From Planctomycetaceae bacterium (GTDB taxonomy: Bacteria; Planctomycetota; Planctomycetia; Pirellulales; Pirellulaceae): a stretch of DNA of 64,000 nucleotides. The translations under genes and the position numbers were made by a program. The stretch lies in NCBI GenBank assembly GCA_002723275.1, contig PBNZ01000029.1:1-64000 (forward strand), in the 5' to 3' direction. How positions within the stretch are numbered: the first letter of the stretch is position 1; the number at the start of each line of letters is the position of its first letter. This document shows, piece after piece, positions 3,219 to 17,270 of the stretch. Below the pieces are notes generated by a model, which worked only from the letters and a program-made list of their open reading frames with translations, had not been told where the DNA came from and did no database searches.

Positions 3219-4154
3219 ATGACGGCTCAGAAGTCAACAGAACCGATGGATCCGATTTACGAGATCGCGGTCCAGCTTGCCAAATCAGTCGATGCGGACG
3301 CAGTATTACTGTTGAGGGAGTCTTCGGTCGACCTGGATCGCCTCAAAAAACTTGTGGGGCGTCGTCGCAAGCTGATCATTGCCGGCGACACCATCGAGGA
3401 TCTTGCGGGTGCGGAAGAAACCGAACTCGAAACCGTTCTGCTGAACATGCCGGAGGCACCGGTCTACGACAAATTGACGCACGCTCTGTTGACGTCAATC
3501 GCGAATGAACAGCTGGCACCCGGGGCTGATGTCATCGCTTTGTACTGTGGCTTTGAGGCAGGGCAAGTCGATTCAGTAAGCCACATTCGCCTGGACGACC
3601 ACCTCGGACGTCTGACGGCGCGCGACCTGAGAAAGCTAGGGACCAATGTCCCCCTGGAAACGCTCAAGACCGTCGTGGATCTTGCTGTGGAAATCGGTCG
3701 GGAAGGCCGAGAGGGCAAGCCGGTGGGCACCATTCTGGTGGTCGGAGATAGTCGAAACGTCATCAAGAGCAGTGAGCCATTGGGATTTGACCCGGTCAAG
3801 GGATACAATCGCCGAGACCGCAACATTCAGGATCTCAGAGTTCGAGAGGCGATCAAAGAGATCGCTCCGCTCGACGGAGCGATCGTCGTTTCCTCCGACG
3901 GCACCGTAGACGCCGCCTGCCGCTATCTGAATGCGACCGCTGCGAACGTCACGCTCTCAAAGGGGCTCGGCGCCCGACATTGGGCAGCCGCAGCCATCAC
4001 GAAAAAAACCAAAGCCGTCGCGGTAACGGTGAGCGAATCGAACGGTACGGTGCGTCTGTTCCACAAAGGAGAGGTGCTGCTACGAGTCGAGCCGTTTCGT
4101 CGTGCGATGAAGTGGAAAGACTTTGAGTACGAACCACCCCAAACGGACGAATAG
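3219..4154 (+). CDS. diadenylate cyclase, archaeal DacZ-like (DisA_N domain)
   Basis: Predicted to make cyclic di-AMP from two ATP. The C-terminal half (about residues 165-295) is a DisA_N/DAC domain. It has the DGA motif at 219-221 (LDGAIVVSSDG), a GARHW stretch at 251-255 where canonical enzymes have RHR, and the SESNGTV strand at 272-278. The N-terminal half (about 11-150) is not the membrane region of CdaA nor the DNA-binding part of DisA. It resembles the pyruvate-kinase C-terminal-like domain found in front of the DAC domain in archaeal DacZ. The protein is soluble, with no signal peptide or membrane helix. The third position of RHR is Trp, so nucleotide binding may differ. The start is ATG 3219; ATG 3246 is a possible alternative. 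The 3' end overlaps the next gene by 32 bases, suggesting co-expression. Confidence 0.82.
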   Translation: MTAQKSTEPMDPIYEIAVQLAKSVDADAVLLLRESSVDLDRLKKLVGRRRKLIIAGDTIEDLAGAEETELETVLLNMPEAPVYDKLTHALLTSIANEQLAPGADVIALYCGFEAGQVDSVSHIRLDDHLGRLTARDLRKLGTNVPLETLKTVVDLAVEIGREGREGKPVGTILVVGDSRNVIKSSEPLGFDPVKGYNRRDRNIQDLRVREAIKEIAPLDGAIVVSSDGTVDAACRYLNATAANVTLSKGLGARHWAAAAITKKTKAVAVTVSESNGTVRLFHKGEVLLRVEPFRRAMKWKDFEYEPPQTDE

Positions 4155-6896: not shown

Positions 6897-7760
6897 ATGC
6901 TTTCCGTCGTCACACTACATCTGCAGCGTAAGGAACAAACCGAGCGGTTCATCAAGGCTCTGTACGAGATGACGGAGCGAGAGTTTGAGCTCATTGTAGT
7001 GAGCCAAGAATCCGACACGGAAACCATCGCGTGGTTGACGCGATTACAACAGGAACAAAAAAACTTTGAGATCGTGTGGAATGAGCACAACATCGGAACT
7101 GCGGCCGGAAGGAATCTTGGAGTAAGCGCCGCATCCGGCGAGTACATTGTTTTTCTCGACAACGATGTTGAAGTCACTCAAGGCTGGCTCGAACCGTTAA
7201 TCGACACAGCCCAAAAACAGAAGTCGATCGCCGCTGTGGGCGCTTTAATACTCTTGCCACAGGGCGAAGTTCAATATTGTTCTCACTACGTTGTCGAGTA
7301 CTCCGAGAACACAGAACAGCACTCGATCGGCCTACACATCGATTGCATCCTCAAGCCAGACTCCCCCGAAATCGATGATGAATGCGAAGTCCCCTGGTAC
7401 CCAACAACCTGCCTCTTGATAAAGAGGCAGGCGTTCTTAAATTCTGGAAGCTTTGACGAACAACTCACGATTTGCGAAGAAGACAAAGACCTCTGTCTTG
7501 CGTTGCGTCAGGCTGGTTACAAAATATTTAGTAATCCGGCTTCGAAAGTCGTGCACCACAGTCACCCCAGAACTCCCGCCTACGCCCAGATCCGAGAATC
7601 TCTATCCCAGACATTTCGAGACAAAGCTTTTTTTGAAAAGAAGTGGAATCTAAAATCGATCCACCAAAAGTCGAAACGATACTTAATCGAAACGGGAATG
7701 TCGGACGACGAGATTGCCGAACTTGAAAAGTTTAAAATGTTCGTACAAGTGGTTTCCTAA
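6897..7760 (+). CDS. glycosyltransferase family 2
   Basis: The product is a 287-residue GT-A-fold sugar transferase, cytoplasmic or membrane-associated, with no membrane helix. Evidence: an N-terminal nucleotide-binding strand (SVVTLHLQRKEQ), the conserved HNIGTAAGRNLG segment, the metal-binding FLDNDVE motif at about residue 80, and a late EEDKDLCLALRQAG acidic motif typical of the catalytic base region. It lies six bases upstream of a radical SAM gene, so the two probably form an operon. The acceptor is unknown; polysaccharide or protein are both possible. Confidence 0.82.
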   Translation: MLSVVTLHLQRKEQTERFIKALYEMTEREFELIVVSQESDTETIAWLTRLQQEQKNFEIVWNEHNIGTAAGRNLGVSAASGEYIVFLDNDVEVTQGWLEPLIDTAQKQKSIAAVGALILLPQGEVQYCSHYVVEYSENTEQHSIGLHIDCILKPDSPEIDDECEVPWYPTTCLLIKRQAFLNSGSFDEQLTICEEDKDLCLALRQAGYKIFSNPASKVVHHSHPRTPAYAQIRESLSQTFRDKAFFEKKWNLKSIHQKSKRYLIETGMSDDEIAELEKFKMFVQVVS

Positions 7761-7766
7761 AACACT

Positions 7767-8774
7767 TTGCCGCAAAAGACCATGAAACGTCCCGCCCAAT
7801 TGATCCTGACCATTACCGATCAGTGCAATCATGGCTGTCGAATGTGCTACTACCACAGCTCACTCAACCGTCGCACCAAGGTCATGACTTTGGAGGAATA
7901 TCAAAAGCTCTCGGATGAACTTGACGAGTTGGAACTCTTGCTGATTTCGGGTGGAGAACCCTTCCTTCGCCAAGACATCGCAGAAGTCATCCAAATATTT
8001 TACCGAAGCAATCAAACTCGCTCGGTCTTCATCCCGACCAATGGTTCAACTCCTGACCGCATCATCTCCACCGTCAGTCAGATGCTGGATTTGATGCCCG
8101 AGTTACAACTCACTTTGATGATGTCACTGGAAGGGCTGCATGAAGAACATGATGCGATCCATGAGCAAAAAGACGCATTCAACTCGGTTGTGGAAACAAC
8201 TCGGCGATTAACGCTTCTCCGCGCGCATCGACAAAGCCAGGGAAAACAGGGGTTCTCAGTACTCTTGAATTCCGTCGTCTCCAATGAAAATGCCGATCGT
8301 ATTATTCCCCTCATGGAATATGCAAAAGAACATCTTTACGTCGACACACACACGTTCACGCCCATGCGTGGTGAGGGGCCAACCCCGGATTGCCGAGCAC
8401 CGACACCCGCTCAGTTTGAATCTCTTCAAAAGCAGGCACAACCTTATTTCCAACATTATCTCGCCAAGGAACCGGCTGCCCTCAAGCATATCTTGGATCG
8501 TTACGGGCTTTGGATGGGATTATTGAGAGGCGAAGGCCTGCCTTTCCAATGCCAGGCAGGCCATTACATCGGCGTGATCGAACCCGACGCAAAAGTCCGG
8601 CTTTGCGAATTGACCCCTGTGATCGGCGACCTACGAGCATCAGAATTTAACTTCGAACGGGTTTGGAACTCAGACGAAGCCAATGAATTGCGTCAACAAC
8701 TCATTGGCTGCTCATGCACGCATGCTTGTTTCATCAACGCAAGCCAAAGATACTATTCTCTGCAGGACCAATAA
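7767..8774 (+). CDS. radical SAM protein with C-terminal SPASM/twitch-like cysteines
   Basis: This is a 335-residue AdoMet radical enzyme. The cluster-binding motif is CNHGCRMC (Cys 20, 24, 27), followed by the SAM-binding ISGGEP strand at about 60-65. The C-terminal region has further cysteines in QCQAGH, RLCEL and CSCTHAC, consistent with an auxiliary iron-sulfur cluster of the SPASM/twitch kind. Such enzymes often modify peptides or carbohydrates. The start drawn is TTG at 7767; ATG at 7782 is an alternative and loses nothing of the fold. It sits six bases after a family 2 glycosyltransferase. The substrate is unknown; the peptides encoded near 14.3-14.8 kb are a speculative candidate. Confidence 0.82.
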   Translation: MPQKTMKRPAQLILTITDQCNHGCRMCYYHSSLNRRTKVMTLEEYQKLSDELDELELLLISGGEPFLRQDIAEVIQIFYRSNQTRSVFIPTNGSTPDRIISTVSQMLDLMPELQLTLMMSLEGLHEEHDAIHEQKDAFNSVVETTRRLTLLRAHRQSQGKQGFSVLLNSVVSNENADRIIPLMEYAKEHLYVDTHTFTPMRGEGPTPDCRAPTPAQFESLQKQAQPYFQHYLAKEPAALKHILDRYGLWMGLLRGEGLPFQCQAGHYIGVIEPDAKVRLCELTPVIGDLRASEFNFERVWNSDEANELRQQLIGCSCTHACFINASQRYYSLQDQ

Positions 8775-11032: not shown

Positions 11033-11887
11033 TCAATTCGGCTCCAAGAGACGGAGCACAGCTTGCCTGGTTTCGTTCTCACCGATCGACAACCGGTGAC
11101 AGGCCGCGCGATTAACCAGCGGCTCTAACACCTGCAATACGGCAAGCACCGAATCCGATTTCGTGGGAACGACTTGCGACAAAAGGATTTCCAGTGCGTC
11201 CTGCGATGGCAGTGGCGACACCGATAACGTCCCTTCCGTCCGTTCGAGCAATACCATCCTGGAGATGGATTTCCTTTCCACGTATCGAAGCATTCCGGTT
11301 GCCTGTCGACTGACGACTAATCGATGAACATCGTGCATTCGACCTTCGACGAAGCCGGCCTCTGCAATTTTTTGTTGAGCATCCTTCGAAAGCGAATCAA
11401 AGCTCAATCGAGGCTTAAACGTCTTAGGGAAGGGAATCACGGTCCTGTTTTCACAATCAATGGCGATCCAATCATCTCCAATCACGGGGACGCCTTCCAA
11501 CCAGGCGGTTAGTGCGAACAATGATTTCCCGGCATAGGGTTCCCCCACAAACAACACCGCCTGACCATCAATCAAGACAGCCCCCGAGTGCAAAACAAGA
11601 TGGCACGTTTTCCTCAGAAAAGATGCACTGACGTAGGTCGTAACGGCAAGAAAGCAATCCTCTGAATTTTCACAATGGCAGCAACGCCCTTCGAAGAAAA
11701 CATCAAAGCCACCAGCATTTAGGTCATCAACATCAACATCAACATCAACAGCCGCCGAAGTAGCAACGGGCAAAATATCGAGAAAAGTCCCCACGCGTTC
11801 CACCAACTGCGGATCGCTCATGGAAACGACAACAATGGCATCTTCCCATCGAAAGGCATACTTCATGGATCGATTCGAGGCCCCCAT
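11033..11887 (-). CDS. HPr-kinase-like P-loop protein
   Basis: The product has 284 residues with a Walker A motif GEPYAGKS at about 115-122, preceded by HSGAVLIDGQAVLFV and followed by a VPVIGDDW strand at about 134-140. This is the pattern of the HPr kinase/phosphorylase C-terminal domain and of HprK-related kinases in peptide-type gene clusters. The N-terminal 90 residues do not match the HprK sensory domain. They include a Val-Asp repeat encoded by a hexamer microsatellite. It is the last gene of a minus-strand block with two glycosyltransferases, a PqqD domain, two short peptides and a nucleotidyltransferase-fold gene. In lasso-peptide clusters related kinases phosphorylate the peptide. 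Here the substrate is unknown. Confidence 0.75.
   Translation of the reverse strand: MGASNRSMKYAFRWEDAIVVVSMSDPQLVERVGTFLDILPVATSAAVDVDVDVDDLNAGGFDVFFEGRCCHCENSEDCFLAVTTYVSASFLRKTCHLVLHSGAVLIDGQAVLFVGEPYAGKSLFALTAWLEGVPVIGDDWIAIDCENRTVIPFPKTFKPRLSFDSLSKDAQQKIAEAGFVEGRMHDVHRLVVSRQATGMLRYVERKSISRMVLLERTEGTLSVSPLPSQDALEILLSQVVPTKSDSVLAVLQVLEPLVNRAACHRLSIGENETRQAVLRLLEPN
11725..11750. repeat. hexanucleotide microsatellite
   Basis: Four exact copies of CATCAA plus two bases lie in frame inside the HprK-like gene and encode alternating Val and Asp. Because the unit is a multiple of three, slippage would change only the length of the acidic stretch. Confidence 0.85.
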
Positions 11888-11991
11888 CCTGGTGCGAAAT
11901 CACCTCTCTGCGGAAAATGCTCGAACGGTTGTTCGAGGCAAGCACAACGTGACAAGCTTAAATCGTTTTCTGCGAGGTTCCACTTCACGCT

Positions 11992-12654
11992 TTACAACCT
12001 TGTTCGTTCCGAAGAAAGGGACCGTCGATAAAGATAGATCGGGTCAGCAATGTAGACGATGTACTTGCCTGAGGCCCGACAAAAACGATAGAGCTTTTGG
12101 AAGAATTCAACATCCTGTGCCCTTACAATACCGCTCCACTTTACATGCTCAACCACCGAGCGGCGAATTGACACGGGACCATTCGCGTAGCCCTTCTGCC
12201 CCTTTATCCAGGGCCATGAAGACGAGTTATCGGGGGTAATCTCTTTGGTTTGTTCAAAAAAATCTTTCGGCTGAAGATCTTCAATCAAACCATGCACTAA
12301 ACCGTAGGCGTTTAGCCGAGAAGCAAAGGCCTGCTGAATAATCTCAACGCGTCCCCGTGCTGGTAAATCATCCGCATCATTGAAGATTAGAATATCACCG
12401 CTGCTATGCTTAGCCGCCAGATTCCGATTCTCTCCAGCGTAAAGTCGGCCCACGGAGCAAATCACTTTCACAGGAAAAGAAGTGTCGTATTTCTCTGGCA
12501 ACGAACAAAGACGCGACTCAGAAAGAGATATCACGAGTTCGTCTGGATGAACGGTCTGTTGCTCATAGGCATCAATCAGTTCCTCAACGAATTTAAAATG
12601 AGGCGCATAACACGGTACACAAACGGTCGTTTTCAGACGTTCCTCCATTGCCAC
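11992..12654 (-). CDS. glycosyltransferase family 2
   Basis: The product is a 220-residue GT-A domain. Evidence: the N-terminal TTVCVPCYAPHFKFVEELI strand-helix typical of family 2, a GENRNLAAKHSSGDIL segment and the metal-binding FNDADD motif at about residue 92. The region QDVEFFQKLYRFC supplies the acidic catalytic-base position. No membrane helix is present. It lies between the HprK-like gene and the glycosyltransferase-PqqD fusion on the same strand. A second ATG two codons in (12648) is an equal start choice. The sugar and acceptor are unknown. Confidence 0.8.
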   Translation of the reverse strand: MAMEERLKTTVCVPCYAPHFKFVEELIDAYEQQTVHPDELVISLSESRLCSLPEKYDTSFPVKVICSVGRLYAGENRNLAAKHSSGDILIFNDADDLPARGRVEIIQQAFASRLNAYGLVHGLIEDLQPKDFFEQTKEITPDNSSSWPWIKGQKGYANGPVSIRRSVVEHVKWSGIVRAQDVEFFQKLYRFCRASGKYIVYIADPIYLYRRSLSSERTRL

Positions 12655-12898
12655 GGTCCCTACGCATCAACCTTGTGTTGAAAAGATCAAACGTTGCGAC
12701 AACGTTGTGTCGCCAGCCATTCTTAAAATCAGACGAATCTAACACAGAGGAAATCGGTAATTCTCACAGACTTTCCATCGGTGACACTGAATCCAAGAGG
12801 AATAACCGTTGCTCCTTCAATGCGATCGCCTCAGACTTTTCGCGTGAAAAATGAATCGCTGAATTCAATCACATTGTCGAACACATTTTCGAACCTAG

Positions 12899-14194
12899 CT
12901 ATTCGCCGGAGTCGCATATCTCAAGAAAGCTCTCGCTATGAAGCAAAGCTAAAGTCTGAGACAAAGCCTCTTCAAGCTCTCCAGCGTCTGATTCAGGATG
13001 AGCTTCGGCCAAAAGATCAGAAAGATCCTTTCGAGTAACTCGCCAAGCAAGCGCCTGCCAAATGACCGCCGCAGTCGGATTCAACACAATCACTTTCCGA
13101 GTATCCATATGGAGCAACACGCGGTCGCCGTCGAATTCCTCCTCCTCAATACGATCACTCCTCGCAAATTGAGTGTCCGGCCCAAAGGAAGCTTCAGGTT
13201 TACTATCGTCCACAGTCCAATCCTTCACCATTTGGGTAAGGTAATTCATAATTCCGTCGCGATTCTGCCCCAACAGTTCAGTGGGAAATGCATAGTTTTG
13301 GTCAAACGCCGCATGCTGCAGAACCTTCTCGAGAAAACACAGGCGATCTTCATCAACCTCTCCAGTGGAACGAAGACCATCTGCCAGAACAGCCAGTTGC
13401 AGTGAAACGATGAGTGGATTGCGACTCAACACTGTCAGAGCAGGCTCCGGATGCCCCAATTCACAAAGCACTCCCGCGGCGATATGGCGTCGATCAACGT
13501 AGTTGGATGGGCGTACATCGGGGTGCTCAAAACACTGCAGCCAACGCTGTACGTTTTCCTCCGATCGATCTCCTCCACCGGAACTCGCCAAGACTGTCAT
13601 CGCGCCATGCGATGCCTCGCCTTTGTCAATTTGCTGCTGTGCGATCGACAGGTTCCGTTGATATTTTTCTGGATACAGGAGCGGATCTTCATAGCCTTCA
13701 TGAAGAACCAAAATCCCCGGAAGTGTTCGAGGGCTGTCATCGTCCCCACTCGTTGAGCGAAGCTGTTCATGAATCGCACCAACCCAACTCACATTGCCAT
13801 TATTCCGATGACAGCGGACCCGCGTCGCGGCTGTGAGATTAGCTTCATCACAGATACGAACCGCATGCAGATCTCCTTGCAGGTCACTCCAATCAATCTC
13901 GGAAAAGCTAAGTAGGATCTCGTCGCTATCGATCCACAATACGAATTCCGAATCGACCTGAGAGAGCAGGCTATTCCGTGCTGCAGCAAAATCATTTTCC
14001 CATTGGATCAGGTGCTGGTGAACTCCAACAATGCCTTCCAGCTCTTCACGTTGCTCTGCAACCGCTACGTGAACCTCTATCCCGAATTCCCTGACCGTCT
14101 GAATAGCTTTTAGAATAGCGGGACGCCGATCTGCACCCAGGATGCAAATGGACACCGAGTACAACTTTGAATTAACGTAGTCCTGAGTCTCCAA
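12899..14194 (-). CDS. glycosyltransferase family 2 fused to C-terminal PqqD-like domain
   Basis: The product has 431 residues in two parts. Residues about 10-180 form a family 2 glycosyltransferase with DSDE at 89-92. The stretch about 190-330 is helical and of unknown type. Residues about 342-428 match the PqqD peptide-chaperone fold: DGDRVLLHMDTRKVIVLNPTAAVIW, then a helical segment ending LALLHSESFLEI. PqqD domains bind leader peptides and hand them to modifying enzymes. The fusion suggests that the sugar transferase is brought to a peptide. Immediately upstream on the same strand (88 bases away) are two copies of a 60-residue peptide gene, the natural candidates for the bound peptide. 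That link is inference. Confidence 0.8.
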   Translation of the reverse strand: METQDYVNSKLYSVSICILGADRRPAILKAIQTVREFGIEVHVAVAEQREELEGIVGVHQHLIQWENDFAAARNSLLSQVDSEFVLWIDSDEILLSFSEIDWSDLQGDLHAVRICDEANLTAATRVRCHRNNGNVSWVGAIHEQLRSTSGDDDSPRTLPGILVLHEGYEDPLLYPEKYQRNLSIAQQQIDKGEASHGAMTVLASSGGGDRSEENVQRWLQCFEHPDVRPSNYVDRRHIAAGVLCELGHPEPALTVLSRNPLIVSLQLAVLADGLRSTGEVDEDRLCFLEKVLQHAAFDQNYAFPTELLGQNRDGIMNYLTQMVKDWTVDDSKPEASFGPDTQFARSDRIEEEEFDGDRVLLHMDTRKVIVLNPTAAVIWQALAWRVTRKDLSDLLAEAHPESDAGELEEALSQTLALLHSESFLEICDSGE

Positions 14195-14282
14195 TTGAGA
14201 TCAATTACTCCTGACGGGATCGCTTAAGGTTCCGACCTACGAGCAAAAACGGCGAATGGCTTATACGACAGTCACACCAGAA

Positions 14283-14465
14283 TCAGGGGTCACCAAAAGC
14301 AGAACTCGATTTAAACGATAGCGCCGTCGCGATTGGAGCGGCGACGACTGCTTTGCGAAGGCGTTTCAGTAATTCGCGACGAGAATGCCCTGGCATACCA
14401 TCTGCTTGACCTTGAATGACTTTCCGATTGGAATCTGTTGGCTGCAACTCAGATGGTTTTGACAT
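14283..14465 (-). CDS. 60-residue twin-arginine-motif peptide, copy 1
   Basis: This short peptide has a polar N-terminal half (Ser, Gln, Asp rich) and a C-terminal half with HSRRELL (Arg 29-30), a basic patch, and a hydrophobic run AVVAAPIATALS, ending in a small-residue tail FGDP. The arginine pair, hydrophobic run and AFG end resemble a Tat-type signal that stops right after the hydrophobic part. It is 77 percent identical (46 of 60) to copy 2, which lies exactly 297 bases away. The start ATG at 14465 is the one shared by both copies. Most of the sequence from Arg 29 onward is conserved between copies. It sits just upstream of the PqqD-fused glycosyltransferase. Plausible roles are a modified peptide precursor or a small exported protein; neither is shown. 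Confidence 0.65.
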   Translation of the reverse strand: MSKPSELQPTDSNRKVIQGQADGMPGHSRRELLKRLRKAVVAAPIATALSFKSSSAFGDP

Positions 14466-14540
14466 TCCGATAAGCCCCCGATGAAATCCATTGGAGTCAA
14501 GGCGAACTACAAGTCCACGAAAGGCTGACTACAAACCTCA

Positions 14541-14560
14541 ATCTTAACTGAAATAAATCC
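14541..14560 (-). promoter_or_regulatory. conserved upstream box, copy 1
   Basis: A 20-base AT-rich box lies about 75 bases upstream of the copy 1 ATG and is matched at 18 of 20 positions by the box upstream of copy 2. On the minus strand it reads GGATTTATTTCAGTTAAGAT, whose end resembles a -10 element. A promoter is the simplest reading, but duplication alone could explain the similarity. Confidence 0.4.
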
Positions 14561-14579
14561 ACGATTTCAGCGAAAAAAA

Positions 14580-14762
14580 TCAGGCTTCACCAAAAGCAGC
14601 ACTCGATTTAAGCGATAGCGCCGTCGCGGATGGAGCGGCTACGACTGCCTTGCGAAGGCGTTCCAGCAATTCGCGACGAGAATGTTCTGGAATACGGTCT
14701 GCTTGGCTTTGACTTACTTCCTGATTGGAATCTGTCGCCTGCAGTTCAGATGGTTTTGACAT
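14580..14762 (-). CDS. 60-residue twin-arginine-motif peptide, copy 2
   Basis: This is the paralogue of copy 1, with the same length, an SRRELLERLRK motif at 28-38, hydrophobic AVVAAPSATALS and a tail ending FGEA. It differs at 14 positions, 8 of them in the N-terminal 26 residues, so the C-terminal half changes less. That is what one expects if the second half carries the function. An in-frame GTG upstream at 14807 would add 15 residues, but copy 1 lacks a matching start codon there, so the ATG at 14762 is preferred. It lies between the nucleotidyltransferase-fold gene and copy 1. Confidence 0.65.
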   Translation of the reverse strand: MSKPSELQATDSNQEVSQSQADRIPEHSRRELLERLRKAVVAAPSATALSLKSSAAFGEA

Positions 14763-14837
14763 TTCGGTGAACCCTCGATGAAATTCATTGGAGTCTTGTC
14801 GAATCACAAGTTCACTAAAAACTGGATGACGCCGTTC

Positions 14838-14857
14838 ATTTTAACTCAAATAAATCC
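14838..14857 (-). promoter_or_regulatory. conserved upstream box, copy 2
   Basis: This is the counterpart of the copy 1 box at the same distance from the copy 2 ATG. The minus strand reads GGATTTATTTGAGTTAAAAT, ending in a TTAAAAT that could be a -10 element. Confidence 0.4.
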
Positions 14858-14996
14858 GCAATTCCAGAGAACAGAATCCGACAAGAAATGACGACCAAAC
14901 GGCGAAATCCAGTACAACCATCGCTTTCCGGTAAAATCCCGTCAAGGACCTCGCGAAGGTCATCCCGTAAACAGACCATGTTCCTGGATCGCCCCA

Positions 14997-16226
14997 TCAC
15001 AACCTCCCTGATCCATCATCGTCATCGGAACGCTTACCCAAAAGATGACGCCATCCATACAAGAAACCCACCTTGAACAGATACGGGACTAGGTCACGAT
15101 AGCGACGAACATGCCAGACCTTGGTCAGAAACGAGGGAAAATTTAATAACTTCCAGCAAAAACCCCGCTTCGGATAATAGCGAGACAACTGACACCATCG
15201 CCCGATCAACGTGAACTTGTAATTCTTATCACGACGCCGAACGCTATACTCAAGCCGTTCCCGTAAGGCAACGGGAGAGTCGGCAAGACGCTCGCGGAAG
15301 CCTTGTGGAATCGCAACTTCGAGAACTTCATCCATTGCCTGAAAGGCATGCTGCAAAATATAGATGAAGGATCGGGCTCTAGCCTCTTCCAACAGACGTT
15401 CCCAATCAATCTGGCTGCCGGATGTTTTTATGATTGTAACGACATCAGGAATCCAGCGAGTTACAGGAGCCCCATTCCGCATCGATCCGTGCACACAGGT
15501 GTGCAGCAGCATATCTGTCGGCGACAGAAACCAGACTCTCTGCCCATGGCACTTCAGCGAAGTCGCCTGATCCCAAAACACAAGATCAGCACTTGGAAAG
15601 CAGCAGTCATGGAAAATGTGCCAATGCAGATCGCATTTGTCATCAGCGTCATTCACCAGATTCACGCCGGGCATAGCATCCGTCGCAATCTCAGCCTCCT
15701 TCCCGGCCAGCATCTCATCGAGCTTCCACTGATGCTCCTGGAGTAAGGCGAACGCTCGTTCGCCTTGCTCAGTCGGCACCAAAACATCAAAATCCCCCAT
15801 CGGCCTTAGACCTAGTTCCTCGTAATAGGCGAGGATCAATGCAGCACCTTTGAGAGCCATGCAAGGGATTCCAGCATCAGCGAGCAGTCCTACTACTTCC
15901 GCCATCACTCGAATTCGATCTCGATTGACGAACTGGCACAGGTGCCCTCGATGCTCCAACTGTTTCGGCCAAGGATATTCAGCGCCAGCCCGTTTCAAAT
16001 TCCTGTGTACCAGCGGCATCAAATCGCGAGTTTTTTCATCAATCGATGCAAAACCATAGTCTGCAGTCCACTCCTGCCACGCGGACAGCGCATCTTCGTC
16101 ACCGCACAGCGCGGACCTCAACAAAAGCCGATGAGATCTTTCGATCGCGGGCGATCTTGTACCGGAAGAGATTGAAACGCTACACATGAGAGACATTTTC
16201 GGATGCGGAGTCATTAACGCAGGCAT
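14997..16226 (-). CDS. nucleotidyltransferase-fold protein (NTP_transf_5 type)
   Basis: The product has 409 residues. The central part has the uncharacterised nucleotidyltransferase pattern: GIPCMALKGAALILAYY, then GLRPMGDFDVLV with the paired acidic residues (D-x-D) expected to bind metal, and later DLHWHIFHDCC. The C-terminal region is basic and helical. This family is often found in natural-product peptide clusters and exopolysaccharide loci next to HprK-like and PqqD-like proteins; its reaction is not established. It is the first gene of the minus-strand block that continues with the two peptides and the PqqD fusion. Several early ATGs exist (for example 16214 and 16196), so the exact start is uncertain. 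Confidence 0.75.
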   Translation of the reverse strand: MPALMTPHPKMSLMCSVSISSGTRSPAIERSHRLLLRSALCGDEDALSAWQEWTADYGFASIDEKTRDLMPLVHRNLKRAGAEYPWPKQLEHRGHLCQFVNRDRIRVMAEVVGLLADAGIPCMALKGAALILAYYEELGLRPMGDFDVLVPTEQGERAFALLQEHQWKLDEMLAGKEAEIATDAMPGVNLVNDADDKCDLHWHIFHDCCFPSADLVFWDQATSLKCHGQRVWFLSPTDMLLHTCVHGSMRNGAPVTRWIPDVVTIIKTSGSQIDWERLLEEARARSFIYILQHAFQAMDEVLEVAIPQGFRERLADSPVALRERLEYSVRRRDKNYKFTLIGRWCQLSRYYPKRGFCWKLLNFPSFLTKVWHVRRYRDLVPYLFKVGFLYGWRHLLGKRSDDDDGSGRL

Positions 16227-16445: not shown

Positions 16446-17270
16446 ATGGCGGATTCGACTCTTCAACAGCCGGGGAAATCAATGTCCGTTCTCGATCAGT
16501 TTTTAATGAAGCGTGAAGTGGCCGTCGTGACGGGTGCCGGTGGTGGCCTGGGAAGTGAACTCGCGAAGATTCTAGCATCCGCAGAGGCAACCGTCGCACT
16601 TGTAGATCGAAACTGGAATTCAATACAGCATCTCGCCGATGACCTTCAGCAGCAGGGTAAATAAGCGACGGCCTACGAATGCGACGTGCCCGATGCCCAG
16701 GCGATTCATCAGTTGATTGATAAATTTGACGATAATTATGGGCGACTGGACGCACTCATCAATTGCGCCGGCATTCTCGGTGCTGATGACTACATGTTCG
16801 AGATCGAAGCGTCGGATTGGGATGCGGTGATGAATGTCAATCTGAAGGCTACCTGGCAAGCATCAACCTGCGCAGCCGCTTACATGATCAAGAAGGGCAT
16901 CCAAGGCCGCATCGTCAACATCTCATCATCGCTCGGCGGCCGATTGCAAAGAAAGCGTATTCACTACGCCACATCCAAGGCCGGAGTCGAACACCTGACG
17001 CGAAACATGGCAATGGAGTTAGTCAAAAACAACATTCGAGTTAACTGCCTAGTACCCGGTTGGCTTGCGACTCCAATGGTGCAAGATATCCTGAACGGCC
17101 CCCAGGGAGAGCATTAGCGAAAGGCGATTCCGATGGATAGAGCAGCTGCTCCCGAGGAACTAGCCGGATCGCTTCTCCTGTTGGCATCAAGAGCCTCCAG
17201 TTATATGACAGGAAGTGTCTTGCGAGTTGATGGCGGATACGCTTATCGCGGAATCGAATGTGACGAATGA
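16446..17270 (+). pseudogene. short-chain dehydrogenase/reductase interrupted by two in-frame stops
   Basis: One reading frame carries a whole SDR fold: the TGAGGGLGSELA cofactor motif, NCAGIL, NISSSLGG with the catalytic Ser, YATSK with catalytic Tyr and Lys, and a C-terminal DGGYAYRG. The frame is never shifted, but it is cut by TAA at 16662 and TAG at 17115. Family members are about 250 residues, matching the total length here; the likely original ATG is 16482. Both stops could arise by one C-to-T change from a Gln codon. They are not TGA, so selenocysteine readthrough cannot explain them. It is probably a recent pseudogene unless the stops are sequencing errors. Confidence 0.85.

Follow-up and report, generated by a model that had tools for sequence, protein, structure and literature searches.

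What could be made by a locus in which two 60-residue peptides with a twin-arginine (RR) motif are encoded among genes for a nucleotidyltransferase-fold protein, two glycosyltransferases and an HprK-like kinase? The question is raised by a stretch of 64,000 nucleotides from a Planctomycetaceae bacterium (contig PBNZ01000029.1, positions 1 to 64,000; hereafter the window), in which one of the glycosyltransferases ends in a peptide-binding PqqD domain. In this study, we believe, with a probability of roughly 0.6, that the block is a peptide-tailoring cassette, in which the short RR peptides are substrates that are docked by PqqD, phosphorylated and glycosylated, and perhaps inserted by the twin-arginine translocation (Tat) system. 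A preliminary description, made from the letters of this DNA, had placed six open reading frames (ORFs) on the minus strand at 11.0–16.2 kb, and we found their place, strand and order as described (Table 1).

The duplicated 60-residue peptides of that description, with a twin-arginine motif and then a hydrophobic run, were recovered as two ORFs that both carry SRRELL and are 78% identical across 59 residues. The two copies are not independent, because they are a tandem duplication. Among the ORFs of 40–90 codons in the window, only these two had an [ST]RR-x-hydrophobic motif together with an uncharged hydrophobic run. The same rule gave a mean of 0.25 on random first-order Markov windows, with at least two in 1 of 60. 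SRRx[FL]L is presumably the Tat motif, and the window peptides fit it, as judged from the motif and the hydrophobic run. A basic c-region is present, and the likely signal-peptidase site, placed by eye, lies after A56. Peptide 2 matched TIGR02811 ("formate dehydrogenase region TAT target") with 15.2 bits, below the cut-off of 48.45. TatC is present both in the window genome and in G438, a genome of the same genus.

The strongest evidence that the observation is real is the synteny with G438. There (locus L240), the whole block stands between the same neighbours in the shared order SDR, NTP_transf_5, peptides, glycosyltransferase–PqqD fusion, glycosyltransferase, HprK-like and pectate-lyase-like. 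The identities of the enzymes are listed in Table 1, and that of the pectate-lyase-like protein was 81%. G438 encodes two intact peptides of 59–60 aa and a third copy out of frame, which is split between two frames at about 11808–11998 of L240. The four intact peptides of the two genomes share SRRE[LM]L-LRKA-P-ATAL-K-AF and end 2–3 residues later. Between the species, the RR half (28 codons) is under purifying selection: the ratio of nonsynonymous to synonymous substitution rates (dN/dS) was 0.21–0.26 in four pairs, two of which involve the out-of-frame third copy, and was undefined in two further pairs, which had no finite dS.

The peptides and the enzymes were also expected to travel together, and in the 199 family genomes sampled they did. 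Strong peptide matches (E <= 3.5e-17; 32 first-look candidates scored per genome) were found only in the window genome and G438, and NTP_transf_5 scored above 600 bits only in the same two genomes, the next score being 134 bits. A weak window-type peptide match in G558 (E 1.6e-4) lay in a frame containing a stop. When a single peptide was the query against 248 genomes of the class, only weak matches were obtained outside the window (best E 0.006). We regard the peptide–enzyme pairing as well supported.

The PqqD domain (PF05402, E 5e-9) occupies residues 359–423 of the 431-aa fusion. The N-terminal part of the fusion had only a sub-threshold family-2 glycosyltransferase match (PF00535, E 0.014); the fusion reached E 4.9e-4 and 19 of 350 bits with the SunS-like model TIGR04195, and TIGR04353 was absent from its matches up to E 1. 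With the whole fusion as query, 25 of 199 phylum genomes matched at E <= 0.001, the non-window matches being weak (best E 5.4e-9) and lying in the N-terminal glycosyltransferase part. The contig search with the same query found no relative, and an AlphaFold model from one sequence was uninformative (mean pLDDT 40.5). Single models were also weak for the HprK-like protein: TIGR04352, whose cut-off is 200, scored 25.5 bits, and PF07475 gave E 0.059. When the window and G438 proteins were aligned by hhalign with four HprK_rel_A-type kinases, the probability was 94.5 and E was 8e-8 over 137 columns. In a separate alignment, the His-Lys-Asp-Asp kinase residues of the window protein are kept as H100, K121, D138 and D139.

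Table 1. Genes of the RR-peptide block in the window, in the order in which they are read on the minus strand
Feature	Position	Strand	Basis
NTP_transf_5 (PF14907) nucleotidyltransferase-fold protein, 409 aa	14997..16226	-	PF14907 E 2.2e-37; 71% identity to G438 copy
RR peptide 1, 60 aa, C-terminal end SRRELLERLRKAVVAAPSATALSLKSSAAFGEA	14580..14762	-	ORF; relatives at G438 locus L240
RR peptide 2 (tandem copy of peptide 1), 60 aa	14283..14465	-	ORF
Family-2-like glycosyltransferase with C-terminal PqqD domain (RiPP recognition element), 431 aa	12899..14194	-	PF05402; 81% identity to G438 copy
Second family-2 glycosyltransferase, 220 aa	11992..12654	-	PF00535 E 2.1e-9; 74% identity to G438 copy
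HprK-like P-loop kinase, 284 aa	11033..11887	-	TIGR04352 25.5 bits; hhalign; H100/K121/D138/D139; 67% identity to G438 copy

The hallmark of ribosomally synthesised and post-translationally modified peptides (RiPPs), namely a RiPP recognition element (RRE), a precursor and a modifying enzyme in one conserved locus, appears to be present in the window block. We propose that PqqD, as the RRE, binds the conserved RR-hydrophobic half and would thereby bring the peptide to the fused glycosyltransferase. The HprK-like protein would phosphorylate a hydroxyl residue of the RR peptide, NTP_transf_5 and the two glycosyltransferases would assemble a sugar or nucleotidyl moiety on the peptide, and the product would be a very short phospho- or glycopeptide. 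The RR half would act as a Tat-type signal, and the peptide may rely on the housekeeping Tat system and signal peptidase for its insertion or export. PqqD–peptide binding, the order of reactions, the modified residue and the use of Tat are all points that we infer. The phosphorylation and elaboration steps are proposed because there are precedents. For example, LppK places up to four phosphates at one Ser of a linear precursor (PMC13381572). With PsmK/PsmN, a hexose is placed on phospho-Ser and is tied to PsmN, although PsmN could prove to be a genuine nucleotidyltransferase (PMC9266682). For the kinases that act on lasso precursors, a review reports a His-Lys-Asp-Asp motif that was examined by mutagenesis (PMC9266682).

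The preliminary description called the system undescribed, a word that holds only in part. No study of the window combination, of RR-leader partners or of HPr-rel-A (a system named by NCBIfam, considered below) was found in the open-licence literature, which omits most subscription papers. The enzyme logic is already known from linear polyphosphorylated peptides (LPP) and from phosphorylated lasso peptides. LPP, published in 2026, comes from Bacillota and comprises an RRE, an HprK-like kinase and an uncharacterised NTP transferase acting on a linear precursor, with no cyclase (PMC13381572). Its clusters have one to three precursors each and are often within capsular polysaccharide loci (PMC13381572). 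The window shares with LPP the His-Lys-Asp-Asp residues of the kinase and an NTP transferase, here of PF14907. In contrast, the RRE of LPP is a discrete protein and that of the window is fused to a glycosyltransferase, the window peptides are of the RR/Tat type with almost no core, and the host is a planctomycete. The LPP leader YxxPxVLxHQxIxFETxxS was not seen in the window peptides by eye. Neither an SpI-like peptidase (LppS) nor an MsbA-like exporter was found in the block shared with G438, and 14 flanking proteins, a selection of the ORFs between 1.5 and 27.7 kb and the only part of the genome scanned besides the block, gave no Pfam match to either of these. Our proposal would account for this, since the Tat and signal peptidase route would do the work of a dedicated protease and exporter, and Tat could replace the LPP-type peptidase and exporter since the RR half is Tat-like and TatC is present.

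Phosphorylated or glycosylated lasso peptides such as paeninodin and pseudomycoidin resemble the window in that a His-Lys-Asp-Asp HprK-like kinase and an NTP transferase act on a precursor peptide (PMC9266682). A lasso cluster is ruled out, since the block has neither a macrolactam cyclase nor a B2 protease, an absence that had already been noted. RRE–glycosyltransferase fusions have been noted by RRE-Finder (PMC7470986) and in PMC12710340, there with PF00535. They join an RRE to a glycosyltransferase as the window does, but in the passages on them in these two sources we saw no mention of a precursor, an HprK or an NTP transferase as partner.

Is the RR peptide a peculiarity of one genus? HPr-rel-A (TIGR04352/TIGR04353) likewise has PqqD, an HprK-like kinase and NTP_transf_5. 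Contigs were scanned with the alignment of the four HprK_rel_A-type kinases; 532 loci were confirmed, and the best 80 of these, most of them from proteobacteria, were used. PqqD was present in 78/80 loci and NTP_transf_5 in 78/80. Just upstream of PqqD there is usually a gene whose product has a leader resembling RRxFxKxGLAxxPVxLTLxSRPxLA. A hidden Markov model (HMM) built from 37 proteobacterial leaders, used at an independent E-value (iE) below 0.01, matched 65 of the 80 loci, once per locus. All 65 matches share the strand of HprK, 62 lying upstream of it and 3 downstream at distances of up to about 2.3 kb, and no match was found elsewhere in six-frame translations of the loci. These 65 loci comprise 37 seeds, 3 identical to a seed and 25 independent ones (<80% identity to every seed); L141, one of the 25, is the contig of G385, which was among the queries of the scan. 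In 11 of the 15 loci that the HMM did not match, a divergent RR leader was seen by eye (L158, L159, L162, L187–L191, L200, L206 and L216), and in the ranges examined of the other four (L146, L168, L182 and L212) no RR leader was seen by eye.

In ten whole genomes with HPr-rel-A, the best match of the leader profile was at the locus in 10/10, and the next best had E >= 0.002. These genomes were chosen from the 80, seven being in the profile and three not, and in four of them 150 of 200–262 first-look candidates were scored. When a general leader profile was run against the 248 class genomes (30 first-look candidates scored per genome), 52 had a match at E <= 0.01; most of these matches were weak and lay in long frames. 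The partner proteins have 24–266 residues after the leader (median 145 in the 65), with SGNxS shortly after the leader in 36/65. NCBIfam and Pfam gave no family over cut-off for three of the partner proteins or for three RR peptides that are separate from PqqD. In two of the eight matches that are annotated plasmid records (Vibrio alfacsensis and Sphingomonas parapaucimobilis), the upstream gene is a "hypothetical protein" and the RR leader is present. HPr-rel-A loci thus usually have an unnamed partner gene whose product carries a Tat-like RR leader. Their neighbourhoods (L141–L220) held a Wza-like gene in 21/80 and a trypsin-like gene in 27/80.

Position, motif and fusions link the window to this pattern; sequence profiles do so only weakly. 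The RR-leader partner, a feature defined here and not by NCBIfam, is matched in the window by motif and position, and the profile match is not significant. When window-type peptides were compared by hhalign with general RR leaders, they aligned in register at E 6.5e-4, with a probability of only 27.5. The window kinase scored far below the TIGR04352 cut-off, its PqqD had no TIGR04353 match, and its NTP_transf_5 falls in another clade; the 60-aa window peptide has almost nothing after the leader, unlike the long partners of HPr-rel-A. Plain membership of HPr-rel-A is ruled out by the model cut-offs and the NTP_transf_5 tree. We put forward only tentatively, and consider rather doubtful, a widespread RRE-guided class that would include HPr-rel-A of proteobacteria and planctomycetes and the window type. 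Such a class would act on proteins and peptides with leaders that are themselves Tat-type signals: PqqD would read the leader, HprK and the NTP transferase would tailor the passenger before export, and the Tat and signal-peptidase route would replace the peptidase and exporter, the window being the most reduced form, in which hardly any passenger is left and the reader has gained a glycosyltransferase.

Other planctomycetes hold related cassettes. A search of the 248 class genomes gave 59 NTP_transf_5 and 65 PqqD over cut-off, and selected neighbourhoods around the best matches were read. Stand-alone RR peptides lie beside sets of PqqD, HprK and NTP_transf_5 in G385, G418, G287 and G429. In loci L119 and L120 (genomes G356 and G302), PqqD continues at its C-terminus into the RR segment, with an A-x-A site and a short tail at the end. 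The tail of the L120 fusion is ASGGCGSS, and the neighbouring gene encodes a SagD/YcaO heterocyclase (TIGR03604, 274.6 bits; cut-off 219.25). This tail and neighbour are what a RiPP precursor would show. With an HprK-like kinase and an NTP_transf_5 match also nearby, L120 (12578–12988 and 10243–12498) may encode an azole-forming RiPP that has a leader of the Tat type. PqqD is fused to HprK in L113 (PqqD by HMM, the HprK part by eye), and HprK to NTP_transf_5 in L110, L111 and L116. Fusions therefore tie the parts pairwise: RR–PqqD, PqqD–HprK, HprK–NTP_transf_5 and, in the window, glycosyltransferase–PqqD. Further, NTP_transf_5 is present in L115 and L250–L252, and G306 has a lasso-type cluster by eye.

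It had been asked whether an SRREL peptide would always adjoin the enzyme set, and it does not: in other related family cassettes the scans found no RR peptide, and PqqD carries a DxIH-GWP tail instead. By eye, D[PV][IV]H...GWP was present in 12 of 13 C-terminally tailed PqqD proteins, and an aromatic-xxP preceded it in 11. These proteins come from L113, L114, L118, L241, L242 and L244–L249, with a variant in L243 that lacks the DxIH...GWP part. Lasso RREs recognise [Y/W]xxPx[L/V/I/F/A] (PMC13381572), and the aromatic-xxP of the tails resembles this motif; a tailed PqqD resembles an RRE fused to its own leader. In the tree, the window NTP_transf_5 clusters with these cassettes (support 97/81), and L114, L241 and L244 hold an HprK-like protein and a glycosyltransferase by eye. 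RR peptides occur with more than one enzyme lineage, because the window NTP_transf_5 groups with the tailed cassettes and apart from HPr-rel-A.

Several points weigh against the window being a peptide-tailoring cassette with the RR peptides as substrates. Only 3–4 residues stand behind A56, so there is hardly a core, and by eye no exported cargo follows the cleavage site of the window peptides. A positive-inside topology would leave the N-terminal half, which is hydrophilic, on the cytoplasmic side. Across the four intact peptides, S12, S28 and T47 are the sole invariant residues with a hydroxyl group, and none of them can be singled out as the modified one. When the window copies were compared with each other, dN/dS was not low, at 0.66 over the RR half and 0.43 over the full peptide, both from few changes. 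As for the enzymes, deletion of LppN, the NTP transferase of LPP, brought no change in a heterologous test (PMC13381572), and a 100/100 branch splits the window NTP_transf_5 from the HPr-rel-A clade, in a tree with 24 of the 78 HPr-rel-A proteins, picked by hand, and with long and uncertain branches. The window peptides were not among the matches of the general RR-leader profile at E <= 0.01. Scores against the seed HMM were low, with 8.9 bits (iE 1.8) for peptide 2 and 8.7 bits for the peptide of G429.

The RR peptides could instead be ordinary Tat-type signals or small membrane proteins, with PqqD serving as an export chaperone and the enzymes acting on another substrate, such as a glycan. 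The SRRELL motif, the basic c-region and TatC agree with Tat, and some related loci lie near polysaccharide genes, as with the Wza-like gene of HPr-rel-A. However, a signal with almost no cargo after it suits this explanation poorly, a chaperone role leaves the glycosyltransferase–PqqD fusion and the PqqD–RR fusions of L119 and L120 unexplained, and the RR leader is distinct from other Tat-like signals, being found best at the locus in all ten genomes. We consider this explanation unlikely, although it survives best of the three. A still less probable one is that the short peptides, unmodified, are in-trans leaders or regulators that activate or recruit the PqqD-fused enzyme, the true core being encoded elsewhere. 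Their leader-like, almost coreless form would suit this, as would a copy number that differs between two and three with one out of frame; yet no other candidate core was seen in the conserved block, and relatives hold sequence after the RR leader within the same gene. Decay of a longer RR-leader protein, in a cassette losing its substrate, would be in line with the out-of-frame third copy of G438, the two in-frame stops of the neighbouring SDR gene and the dN/dS of 0.43–0.66 between the window copies, but is very improbable given that dN/dS of the RR half is lower between the species and that both species keep intact copies of equal length.

Around the cassette, the SDR-family gene (16446–17270, plus strand) has in-frame stops, TAA at 16662 and TAG at 17115, and its copy in G438 is open (262 aa); the window gene is likely a pseudogene or a sequencing error. 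At 6897–8774 (plus strand), an MftF-like glycosyltransferase adjoins a radical SAM protein that matches SPASM weakly, and this pair had been mentioned as a possible member of the block. The G438 relative of the radical SAM protein (85%), which has one internal stop, lies on contig C9 and the block on C53, with no such relative within 20 kb around the block. The pair as a part of the cassette is ruled out by the G438 synteny. A DacZ-like diadenylate cyclase with DacZ_P and DAC domains is encoded at 3219–4154 (plus strand).

In our reading of the block as a peptide-tailoring cassette, the window would be a minimal case of a peptide reader fused to a glycosyltransferase. The RR-leader partner offers a concrete substrate-family candidate for the orphan HPr-rel-A system, and it would tie RRE-directed peptide tailoring to twin-arginine leaders.

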